From the NCBI GenBank assembly GCA_007449985.2, contig VIIQ02000336.1, positions 1-64,000 on the forward strand: DNA of 64,000 nucleotides, given 5' to 3'. This document shows, one piece after another, positions 7,002 to 55,000 of this stretch. This DNA is from Desmodesmus armatus. Lineage: Eukaryota; Chlorophyta; Chlorophyceae; Sphaeropleales; Scenedesmaceae. The notes under the pieces are model-generated. The model made no database searches, was not told the DNA's origin, and saw only the letters and a list, made by a program, of their open reading frames with translations. A program made the position numbers and the translations under genes. The stretch's first letter is position 1, and every line of letters begins with the position of its first letter.

Positions 7002-10000
7002 AGGCTGTTCCCCAGCGATCACCGCCGAGTGCTGGCTTGCCTGCAGCCGCCTGGGACCCCCGAGCAGGGCAAGGGGCGGTGGCGCTTCCCCAACCACATG
7101 CTGGGGGTGGAGGCCTTCAGGGAACCGTACCGTCGCCAGCTGCAGGATGCGATAGCAGCACTGGAACAGCGCAGCCCGCGTCTTGACCCAGCAGAGGAAT
7201 GGGAGCTGATCAAGAAGCTGGCTCAGAGTCTCTGCCAGCAGCTTGAGCAGCAGCTGAACAGGCAACAGAATCAGGAGCGCCAGCGTCTCTGGCAGCAGAT
7301 CGCTGCAGCACGCAACATCAGCCGCGCACTGGGGGATGCACAGGGGGTACGGGACCAGTTAGCCGCAGAGAAGGCCTTCACCGCCTTCGAGGCTGCTCAA
7401 TTGGAGCAGGAAGCAGCCGCTACAGAGCCGCTCTGGGAGGTATACGGGGAGCAGTCCACCTTCTTGTTCCACCAGGGGGGCAGGGCTGCCCAGGAGCCTC
7501 AAGCAATAGCTGAGGTGCAGCGGCCTGACGGGGTGACAGTAGCAGCGCAGGGAAGGGATGGGATAGCAGCAGTGGGGGAGCTGCTGGCAGACTTCTACGA
7601 TCCCGCCAAGGGTGGCTTGTTCTCATGCCACCCCACGGATCGGCAGCAGCAGGACCTCCTGCTGGCAGCCATTGATAGGAAGAAAAAAAAAACCAAAAAA
7701 AATTGATAGGAAACTAGACGAGGAGCAGCAGCAGCAGTGCAGTGGGGAAGGGGAGGAGGGCACCCTGACAGGGCAGGAGGCGCACGCAGCTCTGGCCAGC
7801 CTGCCACGGGGTAAGGCTCCAGGCAGTGACGGACTCACCTATGAGTTCTATACTGCCATGTGGGAGGTGGTAGGGGACCACCTCATAGCAGCTTTCAACT
7901 TTAGCTTCCAGCAGCCGGAGCTTAGACTGTCAGAGACGCAGCGGCTGGGCCTGATCACCCTCATCTACAAGGGGGGTGGCAAGCCCAGGGCAGACCCAGC
8001 CAGCTACAGGCCCATCACCCTCCTCAACTGCGATCTCAAGATCGTGGCCAAGGTGCTGGTGCACAGGTTGGGACCAGCCTGCGCCAGCGTCATAGACCCC
8101 ACACAGACCGCCTTCGTCCCAGGGCGGGACATTGCAGACAATGTGCTGCACCACCTGGAGGAAATCGACTTCCTCCAGGAGGTGCAGCGGCCGGGCTGCA
8201 TTGTCTTTTTGGACTTCGAGAAGGCGTATGACCGCCTCAACAGGGGGTGGTTGCTGCGCTGCATGGAGGCCATGCAGTTCCCTGAGAGCAGCAGGCGCTG
8301 GGTGCGCTTGCTGCTGGAGGGCACCATGGGTCAGATCATCTTCAACGGCGGTCACAGCAGCAGGGCGTTTGACATCCCCTCCGGCTGTGCACAGGGCAGC
8401 CCTCTCAGCCCGCTGCTGTACGTCATAGCAGCGCAGCCGTTAGCAGCCAGGTGCAGACAGCTACAGCGGGAGGGTGGGATCACCAGCATCGACATGCCGG
8501 GCGACCAGGGCCCCGCCCCCTGCTGCCACCAGCATGCAGACGACACCACCCTGCATGCGGCCTCACCGGCGGACGTGGGCACCCTGCTGCAGCAGGCCGT
8601 GGAGCCGTTCTGTGCAGCCAGCGCAGCAAAGCTCAACGTCGACAAGAGCCAGGGTATGGGGCTGGGACCTCACAGCAGCATGCAGGGTTTAGATGCAGCG
8701 ACGGGTATAGTGTTTGTGAACACGAGGGATGCCCCCATCAGGCACCTGGGCATACTGTTGTCTGTCGAGGGTGCGACACGCTTTGCAGAACAGCTTTTTG
8801 AGCAGCGGCTGCGCAACATTGGGCACAGGGCACGCACCTGGAGCAGGTATGACCTCTCACTGCTGGGCAGGTGTGAGGTAGCCAGGCAGGTGCTGGCCTC
8901 CTGTTTGGTGTACCATGCGCAGTTTGTGCCAGTACCTGAGCGCATCATGCGCCTCATCCAGCGCCGCATCTCAGCCTTTGTTCTGGGGCTGGGGTGCATC
9001 CGCAACACAGACAACAGGCAGCTGCGGTGGCGCCCAGCTCAGCAGGTGGCCAGCCTGCAGGCCAAGCAGGGGGGCATAGCCAGCGTCGATGTGCAGGCAC
9101 ATGTGACAGCCATGCAGGGGAAGGTGATGGCAGCACTGCTGCACCCCCACAAGCAAGCATGGAAGCAGTTCATGCGGGCCAACTTGGAGCGTGCAGGGGT
9201 GGGGGTGCGGGTGCTGCTACAGCAGCACTCCTCGGGGCAAGGAGCAGCAGCAATACGGCGGCGCCTCAACCCAAGGCACGCAGCGCACGTCGCCGCGTTC
9301 CAGTCGCTGGGGCTGCACAGGCGCGTCGCCCACGGCGACATGACGCTGGATCAGATCAAACTGGAGCCAGTGCTGGGAAACCACAGCGTGGCCAGCGCCG
9401 TCACGGGTGTGCTGTTCAGCTCTGCCCGCGAACTGCCCAGCAGTGTGCAGCCTCGCTCGGCAGACACAACCCTTGGGCAGGTGGCAGAGCGAGGCCTGTC
9501 CTTTCAGCCAGCGGTGGATGGCCTCGTGCTGCCGTCGGCATGGCAGCAGGCTCTCCAGCCGCCTGCAGATCAGCAGCAGCAGCAGCGGCAGCCGTCGCTG
9601 CAGCAGCAGTCACAGTGGGAAGTGGACTCAGGGGACAGGTGGGTGTGGCAGAGGATGGAGGACCGGGAGCAGTGGTACCGGGTGCAGCCAGATGGCAGCC
9701 TCCGCTGCCTCAACACAGATCCTGACGTGCCGCAGGGTGTGGTGTTCGCTCCTTGCTGCGTGGTGTTCGCTCCACTGGGCGGCCCTCGCAGGCAGCACAG
9801 GCAGCAGCAGCAGTCAGAGGCCACACAGCGGGAGCCCCTTGAGGCCTACTACCTGGTGGGGCGGTGGCCTGAGGTCCAGATTGACCCTAACGTGTGGGGT
9901 TTTGGGCCAGACACGGGGGTAGTGCAGTATTCAGTTAGAGACGTCACACGCAGGCTGGTGCAGCTCAAATGCAGGTCGCAGCCTGGATGGGTGCTGGACA

Positions 10001-11313
10001 GGGGGGTGCGGCCTCGGCCGTGGCGGGACAGCGAAGACAACCTGGCGCCCAGCACAGGTTTGCAGCAGCTGGAAGCGAAGCACAAGCGCAGCTTTGCGGA
10101 GATGATGCAGAGTGGCTTTAGCACAGGTAACAGCAGCAGCAGCAGCGGCCGCCACCGCATCACAACTGCTGACCAGATGGCAGCGTATGATGCTACGTGG
10201 ATGCACGACAGCCCGGCCCGGCAGCATGTCCTGCAGCGGGTTGCAGAGAGGGCTGATACAGCAGCAGGGTCACAGCCAACAGCTTGGCGGCAGCAGCAGG
10301 ACCTACAGCATGTCACCACCCCAACCGTGGATGACACAGAGGACCCCTTGGCCAGGGGGTTGCAGCCCGCTACAGAGGCCGACTCAGCGTGGGGAAAAGC
10401 GTACCGTCGGGCCGCTGACAAGCGCCTGCCACGGCTGCTGAGGGTGTTTGGATGGCAGCTGCTTCATGCCGCCGTCAGGGTTGGGGATAGTAGGGTATAC
10501 GCTGCCACCAACATGCAGGAGCTGCTGCAATGCTGCTGTCCGCAGCAACAGTGCCGGCTGGCGCCCCAGCAGCAGCAGCAGCAGCAGCCAGGCCAGGCGG
10601 GAGCACTGCAGTCTCAGCAGCAACAACAACAGGGGCAGGGCGGGACTGGGGGATCACAGCTGCTGCTGCAGCAGCTGCAGCAGCAGGGGCAGGGTGGGGA
10701 TGAGCAGCTGCAGCAGCAGCCGCAGCCACAGCCGGGACAGGCTGCGAACGGAGGGGCACAGCACCACCAGCAGCAGCAGCAGTCACAGCAGCAGGTTGGG
10801 ACCCAGCAGTAGCAGCTGCCGACTCCAGACAGCTATCAGCTTGAGTCTCTGTCTCACCTCTTTGTGCAGTGCCCTGTCGCGGTGGCCGTGTGGGCTTGGT
10901 TTGCAGGTGTGTGGCAGAGGGTGCAGCCGGGAGCAGCAGTGGACTTCAGCAGCGTTCGCATCCTACTGTTGGATGACAGCACAATGTGGAAGCCTCCACC
11001 AGCGCTGCAGCAGCTTTGGACATACCTGCGGCTGCTGCTGCTGGAGTCCTTCTGGGTGGTTCGGTGTGCCAGCGAGGGCCGACCGTACAGCAGTGTTGCA
11101 GTCATCCACAGGTTCAGGGCAGCATTGCAGCAGCAGCTCTCACAGGACTGGCTTAGGTCTCAGGGGGACATCCGCCTCAACTCTGGGGTGCCTCTGTCCT
11201 GGCTACGGGGCCGCAACCCCGTCCTGTCGCCAGAGCGGTTTGATGCTAAGTGGCAACAGCAGGGGGTAGTGTACACAGTGGCTGCAGGCGTGGGTCCCCG
11301 CCTTGCGTTCTAG
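7002..11313 (+). pseudogene. LINE-A ORF: reverse transcriptase and C-terminal domain, disrupted
   Basis: Would copy the element's RNA into the genome by target-primed reverse transcription. Motifs in order: YRPITLLN-D-KIVAKVL (about 8005), FVPGRDIADNVLHHL, motif A FLDFEKAYDRL (about 8205), motif B GCAQGSPLSPLL (about 8390), motif C HADD (8533-8544; the common residue before ADD is F or Y), motif D LNVDKSQGMGLG (about 8632) and RHLGILLS. C-terminal half: a long linker, CCCPQQQC, Gln-rich repeats, then HLFVQCP. Two lesions: a 20-nt A-rich insertion at 7682-7701 flanked by ATTGATAGGAA shifts the frame, and TAG at 10810-10812 interrupts a CAG run. After it the same frame is open to the true stop. 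Not functional as it stands. Confidence 0.9.
7671..7712 (+). mobile_element. Poly(A)-only insertion with TSD in the LINE-A ORF
   Basis: ATTGATAGGAA at 7671-7681 is repeated at 7702-7712. The 20 nt between are G, ten A, CC and seven A. Removing the insert and one repeat restores the frame IDRK-LDEEQ across the junction. Confidence 0.85.
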
Positions 11314-12568: not shown

Positions 12569-12641
12569 GGTGGGCGGGCTGGGATTCGAACCCAGATCTC
12601 CCCGGTATCAACCGGGTGCTTTAGCCATTAAGCTACCCCCC
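12569..12641 (-). promoter_or_regulatory. tRNA-like SINE head (Pol III A and B boxes), copy 1
   Basis: Minus strand: TAGCTTAATGG matches the A-box consensus and GGTTCGAATCC the B-box. D-arm GCTT/AAGC and T-arm CTGGG/CCCAG are perfect. The anticodon stem CCCGG/CCGGG closes a 6-nt loop TTGATA, one short of a real tRNA. So this is an internal Pol III promoter of a SINE rather than a working tRNA gene. Confidence 0.8.
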
Positions 12642-12849
12642 TGGTGCATGGTCGGGTCCTGGTGTCTGCTTTTTGGCAGGCTGCACTGCGACGTGCCGCC
12701 CGTGAGACCATGTGGTGGGGTGTCGGCTTGCGCCCTCACAGGGTGGTGCCTGCCAGGTTGCGCCATCCTCTTGCCTGAGCTTTGAGGGGTGGCTTCTGTT
12801 GCTTGACTTCGCTCTTGTAACTTGCTCACTCCAAAAAAAAAAAAAAAAA

Positions 12850-13206: not shown

Positions 13207-13690
13207 AGGGGGGGTAGCTTAATGGCTAAAGCACCCGGTTGATACCGGGAGATCTGGGTTCGAATCCCAGCCCGCCCACCGGCAGCAGGAGGCAGCGGCA
13301 TAATGTGTCTGTTGCAGCCCACAGCAGCGTCTTACGCCTTGGTGCTAGTTGGTAGAAGACTTAGGAGGCAGCAGGAGGCGACTGGTCCGCCCACAGCAGC
13401 GACTTGATAGTTGGCATGGTTAGTAGTTGGGTTAGTGCTGGAGGCTTTGATAGTAGCAGACTTAGACGTTAAAGCAGGTGCATGGTTGAGCCCTGGTGTC
13501 TGCTTCGTGCAGGCTGCGCTGCACAAGCGCCGCTCACATAATCATGTGGTGAGGGTGGTGGTGCCCCCTCAAAGGGTGGTGATTGTCAGGTTGCGCCATT
13601 CTCCTGCAAGAGCAAATGAGGGGTGGCAGTGGTTGCTTGACTCCGCTCATGTAACAAGCCTACCCAGGAAAAAAAAAAGGAAAAAAAAAA
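13207..13690 (+). mobile_element. SINE, full-length reference copy
   Basis: A 484-bp element in the satellite, flanked by TACCAACATGCA at 13195-13206 and 13691-13702. Layout: tRNA-like head (13208-13280), unique body with GGCAGCAGGAGGCAGCGGC and TTAGTAGTTGGGTTAGTGC, then from about 13475 a tail starting GCAGGTGCATGGTTGAGCCC that aligns with the LINE-A/B 3' ends, and an interrupted A tail. Non-autonomous: head for Pol III transcription, tail presumably recognised by a partner LINE RT. It is the most complete copy in this window. Confidence 0.93.
13208..13280 (+). promoter_or_regulatory. tRNA-like SINE head (Pol III A and B boxes), copy 2
   Basis: Seven G residues (13208-13214) face CCCGCCC (13271-13277) as an acceptor-like stem. 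A-box TAGCTTAATGG at 13215-13225; B-box GGTTCGAATCC. The 6-nt anticodon loop argues against decoding function. Confidence 0.82.
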
Positions 13691-16157
13691 TACCAACATG
13701 CACCCCAATTGAGTCAGTGTGCGGCGCGTAGCGTTGGGTTGAGGGCGGCGGATGCCGCGTGATGGTGCGCAGCGATGGTGGTGCGCAAAATCATCTGGTT
13801 GGCTCTGATGAAAGACCAAGATATGTTCTTCAAGCGTACCAACATGCACCCCAATTGAGTCAGTGTGCGGCGCGTAGCGTTGGGTTGAGGGCGGCGGGTG
13901 CCGCGTGATGGTGCGCAGCGATGGTGGTGCGCAAAAATCATCTGGTTGGCTCTGATGAAAGACCAAGATATGTTCTTCAAGCGTACCAACATGCACCCCA
14001 ATTGAGTCAGTGTGCGGCGCGTAGCGTTGGGTTGAGGGCGGCGGGTGCCGCGTGATGGTGCGCAGCGATGGTGGTGCGCAAAAAACATCTGGTGGGCTCT
14101 GATGAAAGACCAAAATATGTTCTTCAAGCGTACCAACATGCACCCCAATTGATTCAGTGTGCGGCGCGTAGCGTTGGGTTGAGGGCGGCGGGTGACGCGT
14201 GATGGTGCGCAGCGATGGTGGTACGCAAAAATCATCTGGTTGGCTCTGATGAAAGACCAAAATATGTTCTTCAAGCGTACCAACATGCACCCCAATTGAT
14301 TCAGTGTGCGGCGCGTAGCGTTGGGTTGAGGGCGGCGGGTGCCGCGTGATGGTGCGCAGCGATGGTGGTGCGCAATAATCATCTGGTTGGCTCTGATGAA
14401 AGACCAAAATATGTTCTTCAAGCGTACCAACATGCACCCCAATTGAGTCAGTGTGCGGCGCGTAGCGTTGGGTTGAGGGCGGCGGATGGCGCGTGATGGT
14501 GGGCAGCGATGGTGGTATTTTTTTTTCCAGGGTGAGCAAGCGATGGTGGTACGCAAAAATCATCTGGTTGGCTCTGATGAAAGACCAAAATATGTTCTTC
14601 AAGTGTACCAACATGCACCCCAACTGAGTCAGTGTGCGGCGCGTAGCGTTGGGTTGAGGGCGGCGGGTGCCGCGTGATGGTGCGCAGCGATGGTGGTGCG
14701 CAAAAAACATCTGGTGGGCTCTGATGAAAGACCAAAAGATGTTCTTCAAGCATACCAACATGCACCCCAATTGAGTCAGTGTGCGGCGCGTAGCGTTGGG
14801 TTGAGGGCGGCGGGTGCCGCGTGATGGTGCGCAGCGATGGTGGTGCGCAAAAATCATCTGGTTGGCTCTGATGAAAGACCAAGATATGTTCTTCAAGCGT
14901 ACCAACATGCACCCCAATTGAGTCAGTGTGCGGCGCGTAGCGTTGGGTTGAGGGCGGCGGGTGCCGCGTGATGGTGCGCAGCGATGGTGGTGCGCAAAAA
15001 ACATCTGGTGGGCTCTGATGAAAGACCAAAATATGTTCTTCAAGCGTACCAACATGCACCCCAATTGATTCAGTGTGCGGCGCGTAGCGTTGGGTTGAGG
15101 GCGGCGGGTGACGCGTGATGGTGCGCAGCGATGGTGGTACGCAAAAATCATCTGGTTGGCTCTGATGAAAGACCAAAATATGTTCTTCAAGCGTACCAAC
15201 ATGCACCCCAATTGATTCAGTGTGCGGCGCGTAGCGTTGGGTTGAGGGCGGCGGGTGCCGCGTGATGGTGCGCAGCGATGGTGGTGCGCAATAATCATCT
15301 GGTTGGCTCTGATGAAAGACCAAAATATGTTCTTCAAGCGTACCAACATGCACCCCAATTGAGTCAGTGTGCGGCGCGTAGCGTTGGGTTGAGGGCGGCG
15401 GATGGCGCGTGATGGTGGGCAGCGATGGTGGTATTTTTTTTTCCAGGGTGAGCAAGCGATGGTGGTACGCAAAAATCATCTGGTTGGCTCTGATGAAAGA
15501 CCAAAATATGTTCTTCAAGTGTACCAACATGCACCCCAACTGAGTCAGTGTGCGGCGCGTAGCGTTGGGTTGAGGGCGGCGGGTGCCGCGTGATGGTGCG
15601 CAGCGATGGTGGTGCGCAAAAAACATCTGGTGGGCTCTGATGAAAGACCAAAAGATGTTCTTCAAGCATACCAACATGCACCCCAATTGAGTCAGTGTGC
15701 GGCGCGTAGCGTTGGGTTGAGGGCGGCGGGTGCCGCGTGATGGTGCGCAGCGATGGTGGTGCGCAAAAATCATCTGGTTGGCTCTGATGAAAGACCAAGA
15801 TATGTTCTTCAAGCGTACCAACATGCACCCCAATTGAGTCAGTGTGCGGCGCGTAGCGTTGGGTTGAGGGCGGCGGGTGACGCGTGATGGTGCGCAGCGA
15901 TGGTGGTACGCAAAAATCATCTGGTTGGCTCTGATGAAAGACCAAGATATGTTCTTCAAGCGTACCAACATGCACCCCAATTGAGTCAGTGTGCGGCGCG
16001 TAGCGTTGGGTTGAGGGCGGCGGATGCCGCGTGATGGTGCGCAGCGATGGTGGTGCGCAAAAATCATCTGGTTGGCTCTGATGAAAGACCAAAATATGTT
16101 CTTCAAGCGTACCAACATGCACCCCAATTGAGTCAGTGTGCGGCGCATAGCGTTGGG
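13691..16157 (+). repeat. 147-bp satellite, main array (about 16 units) with a 916-bp higher-order duplication
   Basis: Tandem units with 146-147 bp spacing (CACCCCAATT starts at 13701, 13847 and 13994). A segment of six units plus one 34-bp insertion event is repeated with a period of 916 bp: the diagnostic insertion junction lies at 14517 and again at 15433. Because 147 is a multiple of three, frames stay open through the array, giving a spurious 628-codon minus-strand frame. No promoter or codon signature of a gene. Confidence 0.95.
14506..14551 (-). mobile_element. 22-nt LINE-tail insertion with 12-bp TSD (in satellite)
   Basis: GCGATGGTGGTA at 14506-14517 is repeated at 14540-14551. Between are a T-run and CCAGGGTGAGCAA, the complement of the LINE-B terminus (TTGCTCACCCTGG-polyA). 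The same event is carried by duplication at 15422-15467, 28686-28731 and 31056-31101. Confidence 0.9.
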
Positions 16158-16396
16158 TTTTTTTTTTCTTTTTCCAGGGTAGGCTTGTTACATGAGCGGA
16201 GTCAAGCAACCACTGCCACCCCTCATTGGCTCTTGCAGGAGAATGGCGCAACCTGACAATCGCCACCCTTTGAGGGGGCACCACCACCCTCACCACATGA
16301 TTATGTGAGCGGCGCTTGTGCAGCGCAGCCTGCACGAAGCAGACACCAGGGCTCAACCATGCACCTGCTTTAACGTCTAAGTCTGCTACTCCATCC
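16158..16396 (-). mobile_element. SINE, antisense, 5'-truncated
   Basis: T-rich start, then CAGGGTAGGCTTGTTACATG and the rest of the tail, ending in the body at GTCTAAGTCTGCTACT. No head. It closes the main satellite array. Confidence 0.85.
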
Positions 16397-23022: not shown

Positions 23023-24773
23023 TATTTTTTTTTTTCTCAGGGTGAGCAAGTTACAAGAGCGGAGTCAAGCAACAGAAGCTACCCCTCAAGGGCTCTGGCA
23101 AGAGGATGGCGCAACCTGACCGGCGCCACCCTGTGAAGGGGCAGACCACCACCCTCACCACATGGTCAAATGAGCGGCGCATTGCAGCGCAGCCTGCTGA
23201 AAGCAGACACCAGGGCTCCACCACGCACCGCAAATTGTGTACGATAGTCACTGCCGGCTGTCGCGCAGGCGGTACTGCAGAAACTATACAAAAGCAAAGT
23301 GACACCACACGGCTAAACTCGCCTGGAATGGAACGCCGCGCAAGGCGGCACAATGGCTAGGTCACTAGCACCCCCTGCCGGGGTGTACACACCAACCTTG
23401 GCTGGTAGCATGAACCGGCCCCCCACAGTATGCACAAAACCACTCACCACTAATGCTGAAACCAAACCCCAACCCCCATCCCTACTGCATCGCAGCAGCA
23501 GAAGCCCACCCCCATTTTTTTGTAGATGGTATGTTTTGGTGGGCCCAAAATGTCCCGTCCAAGGACCCCCACTCCCAGAAGAGGCCCATCAAGCATCCCC
23601 TGGCAGCACAAGGCGGGGCCCGGTGCCATCCCCCACTGCGTACAACACCCCCGGCTGCTGCCATTTGGCGGCGAACCGCTCCGGCAGCAGCTCAGGGTTG
23701 CGGCCCCGGAGCCAAGACAAAGGCACCCCAGAGTTCAGGCGGATGTCCCCTTGTGTCCTGAGCCAGTCCTGCGAGAGCTGCTGCTGCAGTGCTGCCCCAA
23801 ACCTATGGGTGACAGCCGCACTGCTGTACGGGCGGCCCTCACTGGCACATCGAACCACCCAGAAGGACTCAAGCAGCAGCAGGCGCAGGTAAGTCCATAA
23901 CTGGCGCAGCTGCGCTTGTTGGCTGCCACACCGAGCTGTCATCCAGCAATAGGATGCGGGTGCTGCTAAAGTCTACCCTTTCCCCTGGCTGCACCCTGTG
24001 CCACACCTGCGCAAACCACGCCCATACGGCCACTGCCACCGGGCACTGCACAAAGAGGTGGGACAGAGACTCGAGCTGGTAGCTGTCCGGGCTCGGAGCT
24101 GGAGCCTGCAATTGCTGCTGGAGCTGCTGCTGCTGCTGTGGCAGTAGCTGATGTGTTTCCCCACCGCCACCCTGGCTGCGCAGCTGCGGCTGGGGTGTTG
24201 CCCCACCCCCACCTTGCCCTTGCTGCAGCATGCCTGCCTGCGTTGGCGGCGGCTGCAGCAGCCCTCCCTCCCCAACCTGTCCCTGCTGCTGTTGCTGGTG
24301 TTGCACCCCCCAGCCTGGCCCAGCTGTTGCTGCTGTGGAGGGTGCTGCTGCCCCGGTTGGCACTGCGGTTGCGGGCAGCAGCACCTCAGCAACTCCTGCA
24401 TGTTAGTGGCAGCATACACCCTACCGCCCCCAACCATGACGGCTGCATGGAGCATCTGCCATGCCATGCCTCTGGCAGCACGAGGCCGTCAGTAGCTGGC
24501 ACAAAGGCCAGCCGTGGCGCCACCTGCCCCAGGGTTGTGCCCGCCAGGCGGGGCACCAAAGTGCTGGGCAAGCTGGGGACAGAGGTGAACAGCCCACCTG
24601 TGACAGCGCTGGCCACGCTGTAGTTCCCTATGACTGGCTCCAGTTGTATCTGCTCGACTGTCATGCCCTCGTGGGAGACCCGCCTGTGCAGCCCCAGCGC
24701 CTGAAACGCTGCAATGTGTGCTGCGTGTCTAGCGCCGAGGCGCCGCCGCTGTGCTGCTGCTGCCTGTCCAGAA
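23023..24773 (-). pseudogene. LINE-B 3' half, antisense, with internal deletion
   Basis: Poly-T, full LINE-B UTR in reverse (to about 23575), then the C-terminal ORF in reverse. Near 24466 the sequence jumps from the GWQMLHAAV block to VLPEAW, deleting roughly 850 nt relative to 19309-21403. TGGCA is shared at both borders. It ends against satellite at 24774. With 20470-21957 it forms a long inverted repeat. Confidence 0.85.
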
Positions 24774-25303: not shown

Positions 25304-25795
25304 AACATATTTTGGTCTTTCATCAGAGCCAACCAGATGATTTTTGCGCACCACCATCGCTGCGCACCATCACGCGGCATCCGCCGCCCTCAACCCAACG
25401 CTACGCGCCGCACACTGACTCAATTGGGGTGCATGTTGGTACGCTTGAAGAACATATTTTGGTCTTTCATCAGAGCCAACCAGATGATTTTTGCGCACCA
25501 CCATCGCTGCGCACCATCACGTGGCATCCGCCGCCCTCAACCCAACGCTACGCGCCGCACACTGACTCAATTGGGGTGCATGTTGGTACGCTTGAAGAAC
25601 ATATTTTGGTCTTTCATCAGAGCCAACCAGATGATTTTTGCGCACCACCATCGCTGCGCACCATCACGCGGCATCCGCCGCCCTCAACCCAACGCTACGC
25701 GCCGCACACTGACTCAATTGGGGTGCATGTTGGTACGCTTGAAGAACATATTTTGGTCTTTCATCAGAGCCAACCAGATGATTTTTGCGCACCAC

Positions 25796-26039
25796 TATCG
25801 CTGTTGCACTCCACCACCGGCCCCAAGCCCAAGGCTGGGATGCCCCCTGTGCTGGTCCTGCCCAATGGGCAGTTTGAAATGACTGCACAAGTTGCAGCAG
25901 TGCTGAATCGTGTATATGCAGCTCACAAGCATGAGGCAGATGTTGCTTCCATCTTTGGTGGCACTGACGCCAAGCTGATTGTTGCATACACCAAGAATCG
26001 CTCCATTGGAGCACGCCTGATCAGGGCACGGCACTGAAA
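25796..26039 (+). pseudogene. Penelope-like element: C-terminal end of reverse transcriptase
   Basis: About 75 codons after the satellite: PPVLVLPNGQFEMTAQVAAV, then IVAYTKNRSIGARLIRARH and a TGA stop at 26035-26037. The ending resembles the conserved Penelope RT tail (a YxKxxxIxxxLxxAR pattern). The stop follows directly with no downstream endonuclease, which fits Penelope relatives with an N-terminal GIY-YIG or none. The hammerhead-bearing direct repeats that follow support the family. 5'-truncated, so inactive. The assignment rests on a short match. Confidence 0.5.
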
Positions 26040-26183
26040 CAGTGTGCTGACTGTCTGAAACTGTGGTCTGCATGCTTTACAGCATATCAGCAGGTGTTGA
26101 CACCACCACTCCCACACTGACAGTCACTGCACCTGTTATCTCTTGCATGCCAGTCCTATACTTGCATGCTGCGTGTGTTTTTC

Positions 26184-26236
26184 GAGCTTAGACCTGATGA
26201 GCCTTGAAGAAGGCGAAACTAGTCGTCTGTAAGTTC
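26184..26236 (+). ncRNA. Type I hammerhead ribozyme, copy 1
   Basis: Self-cleaving RNA motif. Stem I 3' strand CGAGCUUAGAC, core CUGAUGA, stem II GCCUU with loop GAAG and AAGGC, core GAA, then A-C-UA-G-U (minimal stem III) and the cleavage C. Predicted cleavage after 26224, followed by stem I 5' strand GUCU-GU-AAGUUCG. All conserved core residues are present; stem I pairs over 11 bp with a 2-nt bulge. Stem III has 2 bp, but ACUAGU is self-complementary, as expected for hammerheads that act as dimers in Penelope-like elements. Confidence 0.88.
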
Positions 26237-26403
26237 GTTCACTCCACACGCACAATACAATCCGCCTGCTGCCTGGGTCGCTGGTACTTCCCACATTGTC
26301 TGTACAACCACCGGTGTTGACACCACCACTCCCACACTGACAGTCACTGCACCTGTTATCTCTTGCATGCCAGTCCTATACTTGCATGCTGCGTGTGTTT
26401 TTC

Positions 26404-26456
26404 GAGCTTAGACCTGATGAGCCTTGAAGAAGGCGAAACTAGTCGTCTGTAAGTTC
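26404..26456 (+). ncRNA. Type I hammerhead ribozyme, copy 2
   Basis: Identical in all core and stem positions to copy 1 and 220 bp downstream; predicted cleavage after 26444. Cleavage at both sites would release a 220-nt monomer with 5'-OH and 2',3'-cyclic phosphate ends. Confidence 0.88.
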
Positions 26457-26529
26457 GTTCACTCCACACGCACAATACAATCCGCCTGCTGCCTGGGTCG
26501 CTGGTACTTCCCACATTGTCTGTACAACC

Positions 26530-26575
26530 CCTGATGAGCCTTGAAGAAGGCGAAACTAGTCGTCTGTAAGTTCGT
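26530..26575 (+). ncRNA. Hammerhead ribozyme, copy 3, lacking stem I 3' strand
   Basis: Keeps CUGAUGA, stem II, GAAA, ACUAGUC and the downstream stem I strand, but the upstream partner strand (GAGCUUAGAC) is replaced by UGUACAACC at the repeat border. It should not self-cleave in cis unless another copy supplies the strand. Confidence 0.75.
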
Positions 26576-27701
26576 TCACTCCACACGCACAATACAATCC
26601 GCCTGCTGCCTGGGTCGCTGGTACTTCCCACATTGTCTGTACAACCACTTCAAAAAAAAAAAAAAAAAAAAAAACTGGGCCAGGCTGGGGGGGTGCAACA
26701 CCAGCAACAGCAGCAGGGACAGGTTGGGGAGGGAGGGCTGCTGCAGCCGCCGCCAACGCAGGCAGGCATGCTGCAGCAAGGGCAAGGTGGGGGTGGGGCA
26801 ACACCCCAGCCGCAGCTGCGCAGCCAGGGTGGCGGTGGGGAAACACATCAGCTACTGCCACAGCAGCAGCAGCAGCTCCAGCAGCAATTGCAGGCTCCAG
26901 CTCCGAGCCCGGACAGCTACCAGCTCGAGTCTCTGTCCCACCTCTTTGTGCAGTGCCCGGTGGCAGTGGCCGTATGGGCGTGGTTTGCGCAGGTGTGGCA
27001 CAGGGTGCAGCCAGGGGAAACGGTAGACTTTAGCAGCACCCGCATCCTATTGCTAGATGACAGCTCGGTGTGGCAGCCACCAGCGCAGCTGCGCCAGTTG
27101 TGGACTTACCTACGCCTGCTGCTGCTTGAGTCCTTCTGGGTGGTTCTTTTTTTTTTTTTTTTTTCCAGGGTGAGCAGGTTACAAGAGCGGAGTCAAGCAA
27201 CAAAAGCTACCCCTTAAAGGCTCTGGCAAGAGGATGGCGTGGTTCGGGTGGTTCTGGGTGGTTCTGGGTGGTTCGGTGTGCCAGTGAGGGCCGCCCGTAC
27301 AGCAGTGCGGCTGTCACCCATAGGTTTAGGGCAGCACTGCAGCAGCAGCTCACGCAGGACTGGCTCAGGACACAAGGGGACATCCGCCTGAACTCTGGGG
27401 TGCCTTTGTCTTGGCTCCGGGGCCGCAACCCTGAGCTGCTGCCGGAGCGGTTCGCCGCCAAATGGCAGCAGCTGGGGGTGCTGTACGCAGTGGGGGACGG
27501 CACAGGGCCCCGCCTTGTGCTGCCAGGGGATGCTTGATGGGCCTCTTCTGGGAGTGGGGGTCCTTGGACGGGACATTTTGGGGCCACCAAAACATACAAT
27601 CTACAACAAAATGGGGGTGGGCTTTTGCTGCTGCGATGCAGTAGGGATGGGGGTTGGGGTTTGGTTTCAGTGTTAGTGGTGAGTGGTTTTGTGCATACTT
27701 T

Positions 27702-28181
27702 TTTTTTTTTTCAGGGTAGGCTTGTTACATGAGCGGAGTCAAGCAACCACTGCCACCCCTCATTGGCTCTTGCAGGAGAATGGCGCAACCTGACAATCGC
27801 CACCCTTTGAGGGGGCACCACCACCCTCACCACATGATTATGTGAGCGGCGCTTGTGCAGCGCAGCCTGCACGAAGCAGACACCAGGGCTCAACCATGCA
27901 CCTGCTTTAACGTCTAAGTCTGCTACTATCAAAGCCTCCAGCACTAACCCAACTACTAACCATGCCAACTATCAAGTCGTTGTTGTGGGCGGACCAGTCG
28001 CCTCCTGCTGCCTCCTAAGTCTTCTACCAACTAGCACCATGGCGTAAGACGCTGCTGTGGGCTGCAACAGACACATTCTGCCGCTGCCTCCTGCTGCCGG
28101 TGGGCGGGCTGGGATTCGAACCCAGATCTCCCCGGTATCAACCGGGTGCTTTAGCCATTAAGCTACCCCCCCCCCCCCATG
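27702..28181 (-). mobile_element. SINE, full-length, with 12-bp TSD
   Basis: TGTGCATACTTT at 27690-27701 and 28182-28193 brackets a 480-bp antisense SINE: poly-T, tail, body, tRNA-like head, and a C13-14 run (G-run on the sense strand). Same architecture as 13207-13690. Confidence 0.93.
28099..28172 (-). promoter_or_regulatory. tRNA-like SINE head (Pol III A and B boxes), copy 3
   Basis: Identical A box, B box and 6-nt anticodon loop to the heads at 12569 and 13208. The preceding G-run is longer here. Confidence 0.8.
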
Positions 28182-28594: not shown

Positions 28595-29069
28595 ATGTTC
28601 TTCAAGCGTATCAACATGCACCCCAATTGAGTCAGTGTGCGGCGCGTAGCGTTGGGTTGAGGGCGGCGGATGCCGTGTGATGGTGGGCAGCGATGGTGGT
28701 ATTTTTTTTTCCAGGGTGAGCAAGCGATGGTGGTACGCAAAAATCATCTGGTTGGCTCTGATGAAAGACCAAAATATGTTCTTCAAGTGTACCAACATGC
28801 ACCCCAATTGAGTCAGTGTGCGGCGCGTAGCGTTGGGTTGAGGGCGGCGGGTGCCGCGTGATGGTGCGCAGCGATGGTGGTGCGCAAAAAACATATGGTT
28901 GGCTCTGATGAAAGACCAAAATATGTTCTTCAAGCGTACCAACATGCACCCCGATTGAGTCAGTGTGCGGCGCGTAGCGTTGGGTTGAGGGCGGCGGATG
29001 CCGCGTGATGGTGCGCAGCCATGGTGGTGCGCAAAAATCATCTGGTTGGCTCTGATGAAAGACCAAAAT
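28595..29069 (+). repeat. 147-bp satellite, block with LINE-tail microinsertion
   Basis: About three units, including the copied 22-nt LINE-tail event (GCGATGGTGGTA repeats at about 28686 and 28720). Interrupted by LINE-A at 29070; GACCAAAAT at 29061-29069 is the left target duplicate. Confidence 0.92.
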
Positions 29070-30496: not shown

Positions 30497-31572
30497 GACC
30501 AAAATATGTTCTTCAAGCGTACCAAAAAAAAAAAATACCAACATGCACCCCAATTGAGTCAGTGTGCGGCGCGTAGCGTTGGGTTGAGGGCGGCGGATGC
30601 CGCGTGATGGTGCGCAGCGATGGTGGTGCGCAAAAAACATATGGTTGGCTCTGATGAAGGACCAAAATATGTTCTTCAAGCGTACCAACATGCACCCCAA
30701 TTGAGTCAGTGTGCGGCGCGTAGCGTTGGGTTGAGGGCGGCGGATGCCGCGTGATGGTGCGCAGCGATGGTGGTGCGCAAAAATCATCTGGTTGGCTCTG
30801 ATGAAAGACCAAGATATGTTCTTCAAGCGTACCAACATGCACCCCAATTGAGTCAGTGTGCGGCGCGTAGCGTTGGGTTGAGGGCGGCGGGTGCCGCGTG
30901 ATGGTGCGCAGCGATGGTGGTGCGCAAAAATCATCTGGTTGGCTCTGATGAAAGACCAAAATATGTTCTTCAAGCGTACCAACATGCACCCCAATTGAGT
31001 CAGTGTGCGGCGCGTAGCGTTGGGTTGAGGGCGGCGGATGCCGCGTGATGGTGCGCAGCGATGGTGGTATTTTTTTTTCCAGGGTGAGCAAGCGATGGTG
31101 GTACGCAAAAATCATCTGGTTGGCTCTGATGAAAGACCAAAATATGTTCTTCAAGTGTACCAACATGCACCCCAATTGAGTCAGTGTGCGGCGCGTAGCG
31201 TTGGGTTGAGGGCGGCGGGTGCCGCGTGATGGTGCGCAGCGATGGTGGTGCGCAAAAAACATATGGTTGGCTCTGATGAAAGACCAAGATATGTTCTTCA
31301 AGCATACCAACATGCACCCCAATTGAGTCAGTGTGCGGCGCGTAGCGTTGGGTTGAGGGCGGCGGGTGACGCGTGATGGTGCGCAGCGATGGTGGTGCGC
31401 AATAATCATCTGGTTGGCTCTGATGAAAGACCAAAATATGTTCTTCAAGCGTACCAACATGCACCCCAATTGAGCCAGTGTGCGGCGCGTAGCGTTGGGT
31501 TGAGGGCGGCGGGTGCCGCGTGATGGTGCGCAGCGATGGTGGTGCGCAAAAATCATCTGGTTGGCTCTGATG
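30497..31572 (+). repeat. 147-bp satellite, right-hand block
   Basis: About seven units. An A-run at about 30523-30534 between TACC repeats, and another copy of the 22-nt LINE-tail event at about 31068-31089. The array stops at CTCTGATG (31572), the right end of satellite in this window. Confidence 0.92.
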
Positions 31573-52097: not shown

Positions 52098-55000
52098 ATG
52101 GGCCCAAAGGCACTTGCAGCGGGGAAACGTTCCAACACAGGCAGCAACAGCAAGGGCCCACCTGGTCCTGCCAAGGCGCATGTGCTGATCGCAGCCCTCA
52201 GCCTGCCTCCTGGCGTCCCAGGCGAAGTCAAGGGTGAGGTGGTGGTTTGCGTGGATGCCCTGCATTGGAAGTACAGGCAGCCTCCCTCTCAGGTCCAGCT
52301 GCGCATCTGCTGGTGGGGGGCACCAGAGGGGGCGGATGCGGTGGTGCCCTTCCACGCCAGCAGGGGCGCAGGAGCAGCATTCCCCATCACCTCGGGCCCC
52401 CGCTTCCTCGTCCGCTACCTGCGTGACATGGGGACGTTGTCAGTGGGCGTCGAGGAGTGCCCCAGCTCCCGTGTCATCGGCACAGCTAGCCTTGACACCA
52501 GCCAGGTGGATGTCTCCCGGCCCCTGGAGGTGTCAGTGCCCTGCCTGGGCGCCAACAAGCAGGTGCTGGCCACCGCAGACGTCAGTTTGCGCATACGCTA
52601 CAGCCAGCTGCTGTCCTCGTTTGAGATGGCAGAACACCTGGCCAGTGCTGATAAGGCCCTGCCGCTGTACCCACTGGCCTCAGTGCCCAACAGCAGGCAA
52701 CAGCCAACAGCAGCTGAAGCAGCTGCGGTCAGGGCAGCCGCTGCTGCAGCAGCAGCCACCACCACCGTAGTCACAGGTGCCGTACCATCAACGGTCAGGC
52801 TTGCAGACATGGCTCCAGCTGCAGCCGTAAGCAGGTAAGAGCTCTTGGTGTTTCATGTTGCACACGATTGCTTCACCAGCTGGTGGTGTTCGTGCCCCCT
52901 GACCACAGGCCGTGATACTGCGGCTGCGAGGGAACAGTTGGTCATGTCCAGCACGGCACATGTCACATCTGAAACCTGTGTTTGCACCATGCTGCAAGGG
53001 GCTGCTCCATAGTTGACCGCTAAATGTGTTGCGTGCTTACCTGTCCTCTGCAGGCATGCTCCTGCAGGAAAGACTGAACAGCAGCAGCAGCAGCTACAGC
53101 CGTTGACAGCAGGCTCAGCAGAGAAGCAGCAGGGCAGCCTGGATCCTGCAGAATCTGCCGACCCAGAACAACAGCAGCGATCAACAGCGCCCTGCAACAC
53201 ACTAGCAGCAACAGCATCAGCAGATGGACTGATTGTTGCAGGCGCCGCTGGCACGGCGGCTGGGCGGCAGCAGGAACAGCAACAGCAGCAGCTGCATGGT
53301 GACCCACTGCTGGAGGTCATCAGGAAAGCAGAGCAGCTGAAGCAGTCGCTGGATCAAGCTGCCAAGGCAGGCATCATGCTGGGCCTGCGGCCCTGCATGC
53401 AGCATCAACAGCCCGGGGCGCAGCTGTCTCCGGCCGTACCATTACTGCAGTCACAGCCACAGCAGCGGCAGCAGGCGTGCTCCCCTCTGGCAGGTGCATG
53501 GTCCCCTAGCCTCTTGGGTAGAGCCCGTGCACTACCCACGGCTGCATTTGCTGGTGTGGCGCACCCTCTGCTACTGGGGCCTGCTGCACCTGCACCCCCT
53601 CCCGCAGCCGCGCTCCCAGGGCCCTCAGGCAGCAGGGGCTACAGCCACAGCCTGTTGACGGCAGGGGAGTTGCTGGCAGCTCTGGCCCCTGCGCTGCCTG
53701 CAGGTCACTCTGCTGCTGCACCAGGCGACCAGCTGCATGACCAACATGCGGGCAGCCTTGGCAGGCACTCGACACGTGAGCACCGCCATCGTCGAAATGC
53801 AGCCTTGGCTGTAGCAGCTGCAGGAAGCAGCAGCGATGACGAATGCTCAAGCAGTACGAGCACCCGCACTGCCAGCAGCAGAGGCAGTGGGGGTAGCAGC
53901 CGTCGCCGTCGCCGGCGCAGCAGCAGCGGCAGCAGTAGCAGTGGCAGAAGCCACCACTCCAGCTTGTTGGCTGAGCTTGATGGCTTGGAGGAGTTGGAGG
54001 ACCTCTTGCTACAGGAATTGCTGAGCATCAGAGCACCGGCCGCCCCTGCCAGGCGCAAGGCAGCTGGAAAGAAGGCCAGTCCCCACAAAGGCAAAGCAGC
54101 TCCCGCCCAACAGCACCAGCAGCAGGACCAGCAGCAGCATGGGGACCAGCAGCCTGGCAAGCAGCTGACAGCTGCTGCAGGAGAGCATGAGCTCCTTGGG
54201 GCAGCCGTCGCAGCTGCTGCTGGCCAGGAGCAGGTGCATGGGCAGGAGGGCACTGAGCAGCAAGGGCAGTCGCTGCAGAAGGGCACTGCTGCTGGTGCCA
54301 GCCTGCATGTCGATCTGGTGTCGCTGCACGGCTTGCCTGCTGTGCCCCCCACACTCACAGCCGTTGTAAAGTGCGCAGGCCAGCAGCAAACCCTGGACAT
54401 CACAGCACTGGTGCAGCAGCTCAGCACACCGCAAGGTCAGCAGCAGGCAGGTGGGGCTGCTGCAGGTGGTGTCATCAGCAGCTGTGGCCAGCACAGCTGC
54501 AGCACCACGCTGGCAGTGCCTGCTGGCCTGTTGCAGCCGCTGCTGGCTGGGCAGCGTCCCTGCCTGGTGATGGAGCTGTGGGCGGGAGAGCCAGCTGCTT
54601 CACAGGTAAGAGCACTGAGCGTAAACGGCATGAGGTGGCCCGCCGGTTCCTCATGGGTGTAGAAGCTGCTGTTGCCTGACCCAGTCGCACCCACAAGCGC
54701 TGGGCGAGGGCATGGGGCTTTTTGAGGGTGACACGATCCAGCCTGGAAAGTTCTTGTGTGTTGCATGATGCTGAGTTTGACTTCGACTTGTTGTGTTGCT
54801 GTGGTCCTCACCACAGGCGAAAGCTGCAGCAGCAGTGGCGGCCAGCAGCCGTCTGCTGGGCATCGTGCGCGTGCCTCTCCAGGTGCCCTCACAGCAGCAG
54901 CAGCCGCAGCAGCAGGCACACGCAGCTCACATGCAGTACCTTACGGGTGGCGCCTACCCAGTGTATGACATCCTGCAGGGGCAGGCAGTGGGCACACTGG

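Follow-up and report, generated by a model that had tools for sequence, protein, structure and literature searches.

Tandem hammerhead motifs at the truncated 3' end of a Penelope-like element in Desmodesmus armatus, and what the ends of its other genomic copies suggest

A stretch of 64,000 nt from the genome of the alga Desmodesmus armatus, analysed here as a whole and referred to as the window, contains a tandem array of hammerhead ribozyme motifs directly behind the end of a reverse transcriptase (RT) frame, which raises the question of what such a unit could contribute to the element that carries it and whether its tandem arrangement matters. Hammerheads in the pLTRs of Penelope-like elements (PLEs) have already been published, and minimal type I hammerheads in particular are described in the literature cited in the consulted part of PMC7761336 (Cervera and de la Pena 2014; Lunse, Weinberg and Breaker 2017); what is new here lies in the element's other genomic copies.

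The array follows the C-terminal end of a PLE RT frame that belongs to a 5'-truncated copy (25801-26037, stop codon at 26035-26037; this and all other features of the element are on the plus strand): the 100% match to the element present at other loci begins at 25801, and the frame ends with ...IGARLIRARH. The terminal unit (pLTR) of 220 bp is repeated directly, at 26093-26312 (unit 1) and 26313-26532, the two copies being 100% identical over the 217 nt (26313-26529) that we delimit as unit 2. The partial unit 3 (26530-26648, 119 bp), which begins CCTGATGA, matches unit positions 101-219 at 100% and thus starts at the CUGAUGA box, without the 5' strand of stem I. The two 220-bp repeats and the third copy cut at stem I that the initial annotation had noticed are therefore present, spanning 26093-26648.

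The motif in each full unit comprises CUGAUGA, a 5-bp stem II (GCCUU/AAGGC with a GAAG loop), GAAA, the palindrome ACUAGU as a loopless stem III, and the site GUC|GUCU, with cleavage predicted at 26224/26225 and 26444/26445. Stem I consists of 4+7 bp with a 2-nt bulge, followed by an internal loop and an 8-bp distal helix. The core, the 5-bp stem II and the 11-bp stem I with its bulge were recovered in both full units just as first described, and the distal helix is an addition to that description. Including this helix, hammerhead 1 extends over 26169-26252 (core 26194-26224) and hammerhead 2 over 26389-26472 (core 26414-26444); a third core, lacking that arm of stem I which lies on its 5' side (26531-26561), is missed by the full descriptor. 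At the level of sequence, all the features of a type I hammerhead (CUGANGA, stem II, GAAA, an NUH site and stem I) are thus confirmed.

Scanning the window with the structural hammerhead descriptor gave exactly two sites, and 100 Markov-1 sequences of 64 kb gave none; the pattern CTGATGAN{10,20}GAAACTAGTC occurs three times in the window, with 0.00 occurrences expected from 100 shuffles. The covariance-model hit that the initial annotation had called for did not reach the cut-off. An Rfam scan of the window gave no hammerhead family at the gathering score, and with an E-value threshold applied to 1,100 bases, RF02275 matched the two full units (26180-26246 and 26400-26466) at 23.3 bits (E = 0.0043), compared with a cut-off of 52; the score for the third copy was 15.9 bits (E = 1.1). 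By the initial annotation's own standard, such a result formally refutes the motif, but we consider it indecisive because the consensus of RF02275 includes a loop on stem III, which is absent here.

Because stem III has no loop, a single molecule cannot close it. The proposal that two ribozymes share one ACUAGU helix holds in part, as judged by folding: two strands can exchange arms and form a nested double hammerhead around one common 6-bp stem III, at a predicted -62.4 kcal/mol, but the cofold optimum of -64.4 kcal/mol, which keeps the ACUAGU helix, pairs the core GAUG away. For one strand, the predicted optimum (-30.0 kcal/mol) hides the core by pairing GAUGA with UCGUC, and the hammerhead stems without stem III reach -28.3 kcal/mol. 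The fold evidence for an active dimer form is thus equivocal.

The genome (G000, 115.8 Mb in 831 contigs) yielded at least 44 matches to the unit when the best 40 of 146 candidates were scored. With a limit of three mismatches, the 31-base core was matched 68 times, 44 of these matches being perfect, compared with none for the reversed control. In the copies read, the units lie at the 3' end of one multicopy element, and most of these copies are 5'-truncated. Locus L031 contains an RT frame of 730 codons and an overlapping frame of 408 codons upstream. At L031:6135-9208, the overlap between the RT frame and the upstream frame is ~340 bases and the RT frame has no early ATG; a frameshift or an intron may join the two.

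The RT of this locus (P0002) matches RVT_1 weakly (E = 4.8e-4, below the cut-off); a PDB sequence search with P0002 gave no match, and a PDB profile search gave five weak matches, the best of which (E = 1.4e-4) is an RNA-directed DNA polymerase. At least 82 homologues of the RT were found among the 7,997 candidates scored, and the precomputed Pfam annotation names GIY-YIG for none of them. Among the eight of the 82 that were scanned with Pfam, P0080 has a C-terminal GIY-YIG domain above the cut-off and P0077 a GIY-YIG-like stretch below it (E = 0.0053). P0002 is 24-25% identical to both; its alignment with P0080 ends at residue 654, and that with P0077 runs through the last residue of P0002 (VAYTKNRSIGARLIRARH / VAFRRNRSLRDILVHARH), directly before the GIY-YIG-like stretch of P0077. 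The RT therefore looks Penelope-like, with the C-terminal endonuclease missing, and no Pfam match to GIY-YIG was found in P0002 or P0003, the two frames examined in the L031 copy, whose first ORF is 5'-truncated. Both findings bear out the first reading of the frame end as that of a Penelope-type RT without a C-terminal endonuclease.

In C426 and C753, the unit directly precedes the 5' region of the element, so that longer copies bear it at both ends, as pLTRs do. With a Penelope-type RT, pLTRs at both ends and tandem or partial-tandem copies, the element qualifies by its sequence as Penelope-like; it seems to be devoid of an endonuclease domain and seems to have two overlapping ORFs, an organization of the Athena/Coprina kind. 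In the L031 copy that was scanned, with its 5'-truncated first ORF, the features found are those neither of a canonical EN+ Penelope nor of Chlamys/Naiad, in which the GIY-YIG endonuclease is N-terminal.

The initial annotation had also suggested that the tandem order could serve the element. Among the 68 core matches in the genome, only those of the window locus lie within 300 bp of each other, which gives no support to the tandem order as a working feature. The best explanation, as we read the sequence, is that the window array is a product of RT template switching. The locus is in itself an unremarkable dead copy.

The 3' ends of the copies converge on ACAACC(AC), as predicted by internal initiation of reverse transcription. 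We propose ACAACCAC at the end of unit 1 (26304-26311) as the RT initiation site on the basis of these ends, with equivalents at 26524-26529 in unit 2 and 26641-26648 in unit 3. Among the 47 places that long loci cover, 42 have ACAACC after the core; beyond this motif, the match to the internal continuation ACTGTTTCG extends for 0, 1, 2, 3, 4, 5 and 10 letters in 4, 6, 16, 6, 7, 2 and 1 cases, respectively, that is, for at least one further base in 38 of the 42. The 10-letter case (C426) is the element itself continuing, and two of the 42 places are unit junctions inside the window. Internal initiation has been shown for a lizard PLE, according to the consulted part of PMC11167929. One tRNA-like repeat (…GTACCCAATCC…) contains or adjoins several unit copies, namely those in L038, L039 (C546:724843, C656:258111), L037 and L032, which suggests that this repeat is a preferred target.

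For the 5' ends, 76 places were listed, comprising the 68 core matches and eight matches to the 34 post-cut bases without a core within 60 bases. We read 51 of these (47 in long loci and four as 50-base pieces) and dropped six whose end is masked by the edge of a contig or locus or by a later insertion (C470, C557, C605, C819 and two in C426), leaving 45 ends. For C536, the end was taken behind a later insertion, and for C545:1381296, the end of unbroken identity was used (BLAST ran four bases further across a mismatch); the 45 include some junctions within rearranged copies rather than insertion ends (the window's unit 2, C753:36055 and C53). Single positions scattered over the region before the unit account for 28 of the 45, and two more ends lie early in the unit.

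Ten of the 45 ends fall within four bases inside stem I, at the equivalents of A26190-C26193: seven at A26190 (C403, C624, C820, C755:9081, C545:1381296, C630 and C821), two at G26191 (C219 and C666:500773) and one, the window's third unit, at C26193. The last six flank bases seen are identical in C820 and C821, which may be one event, reducing the cluster to nine; for nine ends in four bases, three null models obtained by smoothing the data give P values of 5e-5 to 1e-4. These ends are the basis for proposing TTAGACC (26188-26194) as an initiator and A26190 (A26410 in unit 2) as the RNA start. The motif fits the sequence YYANWYY, which we take to be the initiator consensus, and TATACTT, a TATA-like motif at 26157-26163, 33 bases 5' of A26190, may have a promoter role. 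We rejected TTAG|ACC as a splice acceptor on the grounds that no 10-mer is common to the 60-base 5' flanks of eight of the ten cluster copies, those compared.

Exactly at the predicted cut site, at the equivalent of G26225, lie two of the 45 ends (C53:131190 and C757:16363; P = 0.035-0.054 under nulls smoothed from the data), and one lies in stem II (C250). Taken alone, the count of cut-site starts is suggestive, not proof. A start near the cut is possible for five post-cut places, namely C53 and C757, both of which were read, and C149:24892, C179:72037 and C133:59033; C149 and C179:72037 have no ACTAGTC upstream within the mismatches allowed. In pattern bins with differing mismatch limits, 15 copies start in the first ~28 bases 3' of the cut and 22 in the next bin, and the starts in the 28 bases 5' of the cut are C250 and possibly C133. 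Two of the 45 ends (C345 and C572) share the start ACTTGCATGC, which we do not treat as a hot spot, since the letters upstream of it could be unit sequence that has diverged.

We lean, by a modest measure, towards the view that the window contains the truncated 3' end of a PLE whose terminal unit combines a promoter, a dimer-type minimal hammerhead and an RT initiation site, with the putative starts, jumps and cutting that this entails. The sequence itself shows the unit with its ribozyme motif, the kinship of the RT, the absence of a C-terminal endonuclease, a fixed 3' end and a cluster of 5' ends, and these are the points of departure of this view. Transcription would start at A26190, inside stem I of the ribozyme, so that RNAs born in the unit would have a stem I of only 4 bp (AGAC/GUCU) and RNAs coming from upstream a full stem I. 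RT would begin internally at ACAACC(AC) and, at an RNA 5' end, could jump to the ACAACC of another RNA, resulting in an array of 2.5 units. Two ribozymes might pair through ACUAGU as a double hammerhead, cleaving some transcripts at GUC|GUCU, and a small number of the cleaved RNAs would have been inserted as DNA; the element could in this way retain the 5' end of its own RNA even though read-through or tandem RNA is cleaved.

For the window array, read from the 3' side, a first RNA would have been copied from ACAACCAC to a 5' end near CCTGATGA, producing unit 3; a jump to the ACAACC of a second RNA would have added unit 2, which ends GGTGTTG, and another jump, to ACAACCACC of a third RNA, unit 1 and the end of the ORF up to 25801. 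In L042, AGACC...ACAACCAC is joined to an internal ORF position by a junction like that of the window array. In C53, an inverted piece extending from the cut site to ACAACCAC is joined to the ORF. Running counter to this best explanation, the window's third unit starts at the C26193 equivalent, three bases off the main cluster, the unit match in C753 begins upstream of the proposed RNA start, and the predicted one- and two-strand optimum folds hide the core.

More tentatively, the promoter might fire inside its own stem I, in which case unit-born RNAs would carry a crippled hammerhead and stay whole, read-in RNAs would be complete and would be cut, and the short insertions would record both kinds of end. 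If true, short insertions would be in vivo evidence of PLE hammerhead cutting. If the 5' ends of insertions record RNA ends, PLE-rich genomes could be searched for transcription starts and ribozyme cutting without RNA data, and such records would make the question testable by counting.

The AGACC ends could, rather than marking RNA starts, be places where RT stops after copying the ribozyme core, on account of a bound protein or RNA structure. Such stops would fit the common 5' truncation, with 28 of the 45 ends scattered singly, and the observation, from the consulted part of PMC11167929, that the protein of the lizard PLE influences cutting by the ribozyme and is believed to bind the RNA close to where RT begins; we nevertheless consider them rather unlikely, given that the position fits the initiator motif and that the last 12 of the 97 upstream bases are unpaired in the predicted fold, so that no hairpin abuts the stop. 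The array itself could have been made by rolling reverse transcription of a retrozyme-like circular RNA of 220 nt, as the identity of the two tandem units over 217 bp would allow. This is highly improbable in view of the register of unit 3, which begins CCTGATGA right after ACAACC rather than in step with a circle, the lack of any other locus with core matches this close, and the RT frame carried by long copies.

A different doubt concerns the ribozyme, which may be an inherited, inactive remnant here, with the two cut-site starts being chance truncations, a possibility that we take seriously while not favouring it. The P values of 0.035-0.054 and the frequency of starts just 3' of the cut are compatible with chance, and the ribozyme is dispensable in vitro in the lizard PLE, where, in the consulted part of PMC11167929, ribozyme mutants insert normally and no reads end at the cut site. 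On the other side, 44 of the 68 core matches are perfect, which says little about selection because the copies compared are mostly 97-100% alike, and the starts per 28 bases fall, in the 3' to 5' direction, from 15 to at most ~2 across the cut site.

Interpreted as a PLE terminal unit with a promoter, a hammerhead and an RT initiation site, the unit can be compared with several known systems, here as they appear in the consulted parts of the papers cited. As in the minimal hammerheads of PLEs (PMC7761336), the ribozyme lies in the pLTR, has almost no helix III and would be expected to cut as a dimer; relative to those hammerheads, compared by description only, it may be distinguished by the loopless ACUAGU stem III, the long stem I with its distal helix, and the RNA start inside stem I that the copies suggest. 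With the endonuclease-lacking Athena, Coprina and Terminons (PMC6431247, PMC3846280), the element shares an RT without GIY-YIG, two ORFs and a hammerhead near the 3' end; unlike them, it shows no telomere-like arrays in the 61 loci (L001-L061) searched with seven repeat patterns, from which the telomere repeat of the host may differ. A rotifer Penelope pLTR contains a TATA box and an initiator-like sequence, and inverted, shorter 5' pLTRs have been described in rotifer PLEs (PMC3846280). The lizard Poseidon PAc (PMC11167929) likewise has a pLTR with a hammerhead, internal RT initiation at an AC-rich site and tandem copies, but possesses a C-terminal GIY-YIG domain, which was not found in the element studied here. 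The retrozyme NbRZ1 (PMC12029980) resembles the unit in having a terminal repeat with a promoter, an adenosine start, to which transcription of the retrozyme LTR has been mapped, and a hammerhead; it differs in being LTR-type and non-autonomous, with a ribozyme inside the transcript that cuts in cells, whereas the start proposed here is inside stem I.

Beyond this genome, an RT search of viral contigs gave 52 candidate stretches, none of them confirmed, and a search of genome contigs reduced 94 candidates to two distant relatives, L076 and L077, in which the structural descriptor detected no hammerhead. Both are relatives of the PLE RT (27-28% identity) on MAG contigs named Enterovibrio and Saccharibacteria and are probably eukaryotic contamination. 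The hammerhead pattern had 14 matches in viral contigs, of which 12 were rejected for having 0-1 stem II pairs; the viral contigs L067 and L069 contain one identical hammerhead-like sequence of another kind, with a 6-bp stem II and a 9-pair stem III.

The window element is embedded in a nest of repeats. A 312-nt inverted repeat with 100% complementarity (24000-24311 and 26688-26999) encloses it, and tandem arrays of a 147-bp repeat occupy 13691-16159, 25304-25803, 28715-29069 and 30536-31572, with higher-order periods of 181, 328 and 475 bp. The 5' junction of the element lies where one such array ends, and in C820 and C426 the copy is flanked on its 3' side by the same 147-bp repeat. The window also has three tRNA-like sequences, nearly identical to each other, that match the Rfam tRNA family (12571-12642, 13208-13278 and 28101-28172) and are possibly part of a repeat. 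Elsewhere in the window, we identified a C2CD3-type C2 domain (52098-52838), which points to a eukaryote, and a different retroelement with an open frame of 1,066 codons (7612-10812; RVT_1, E = 7.9e-31).
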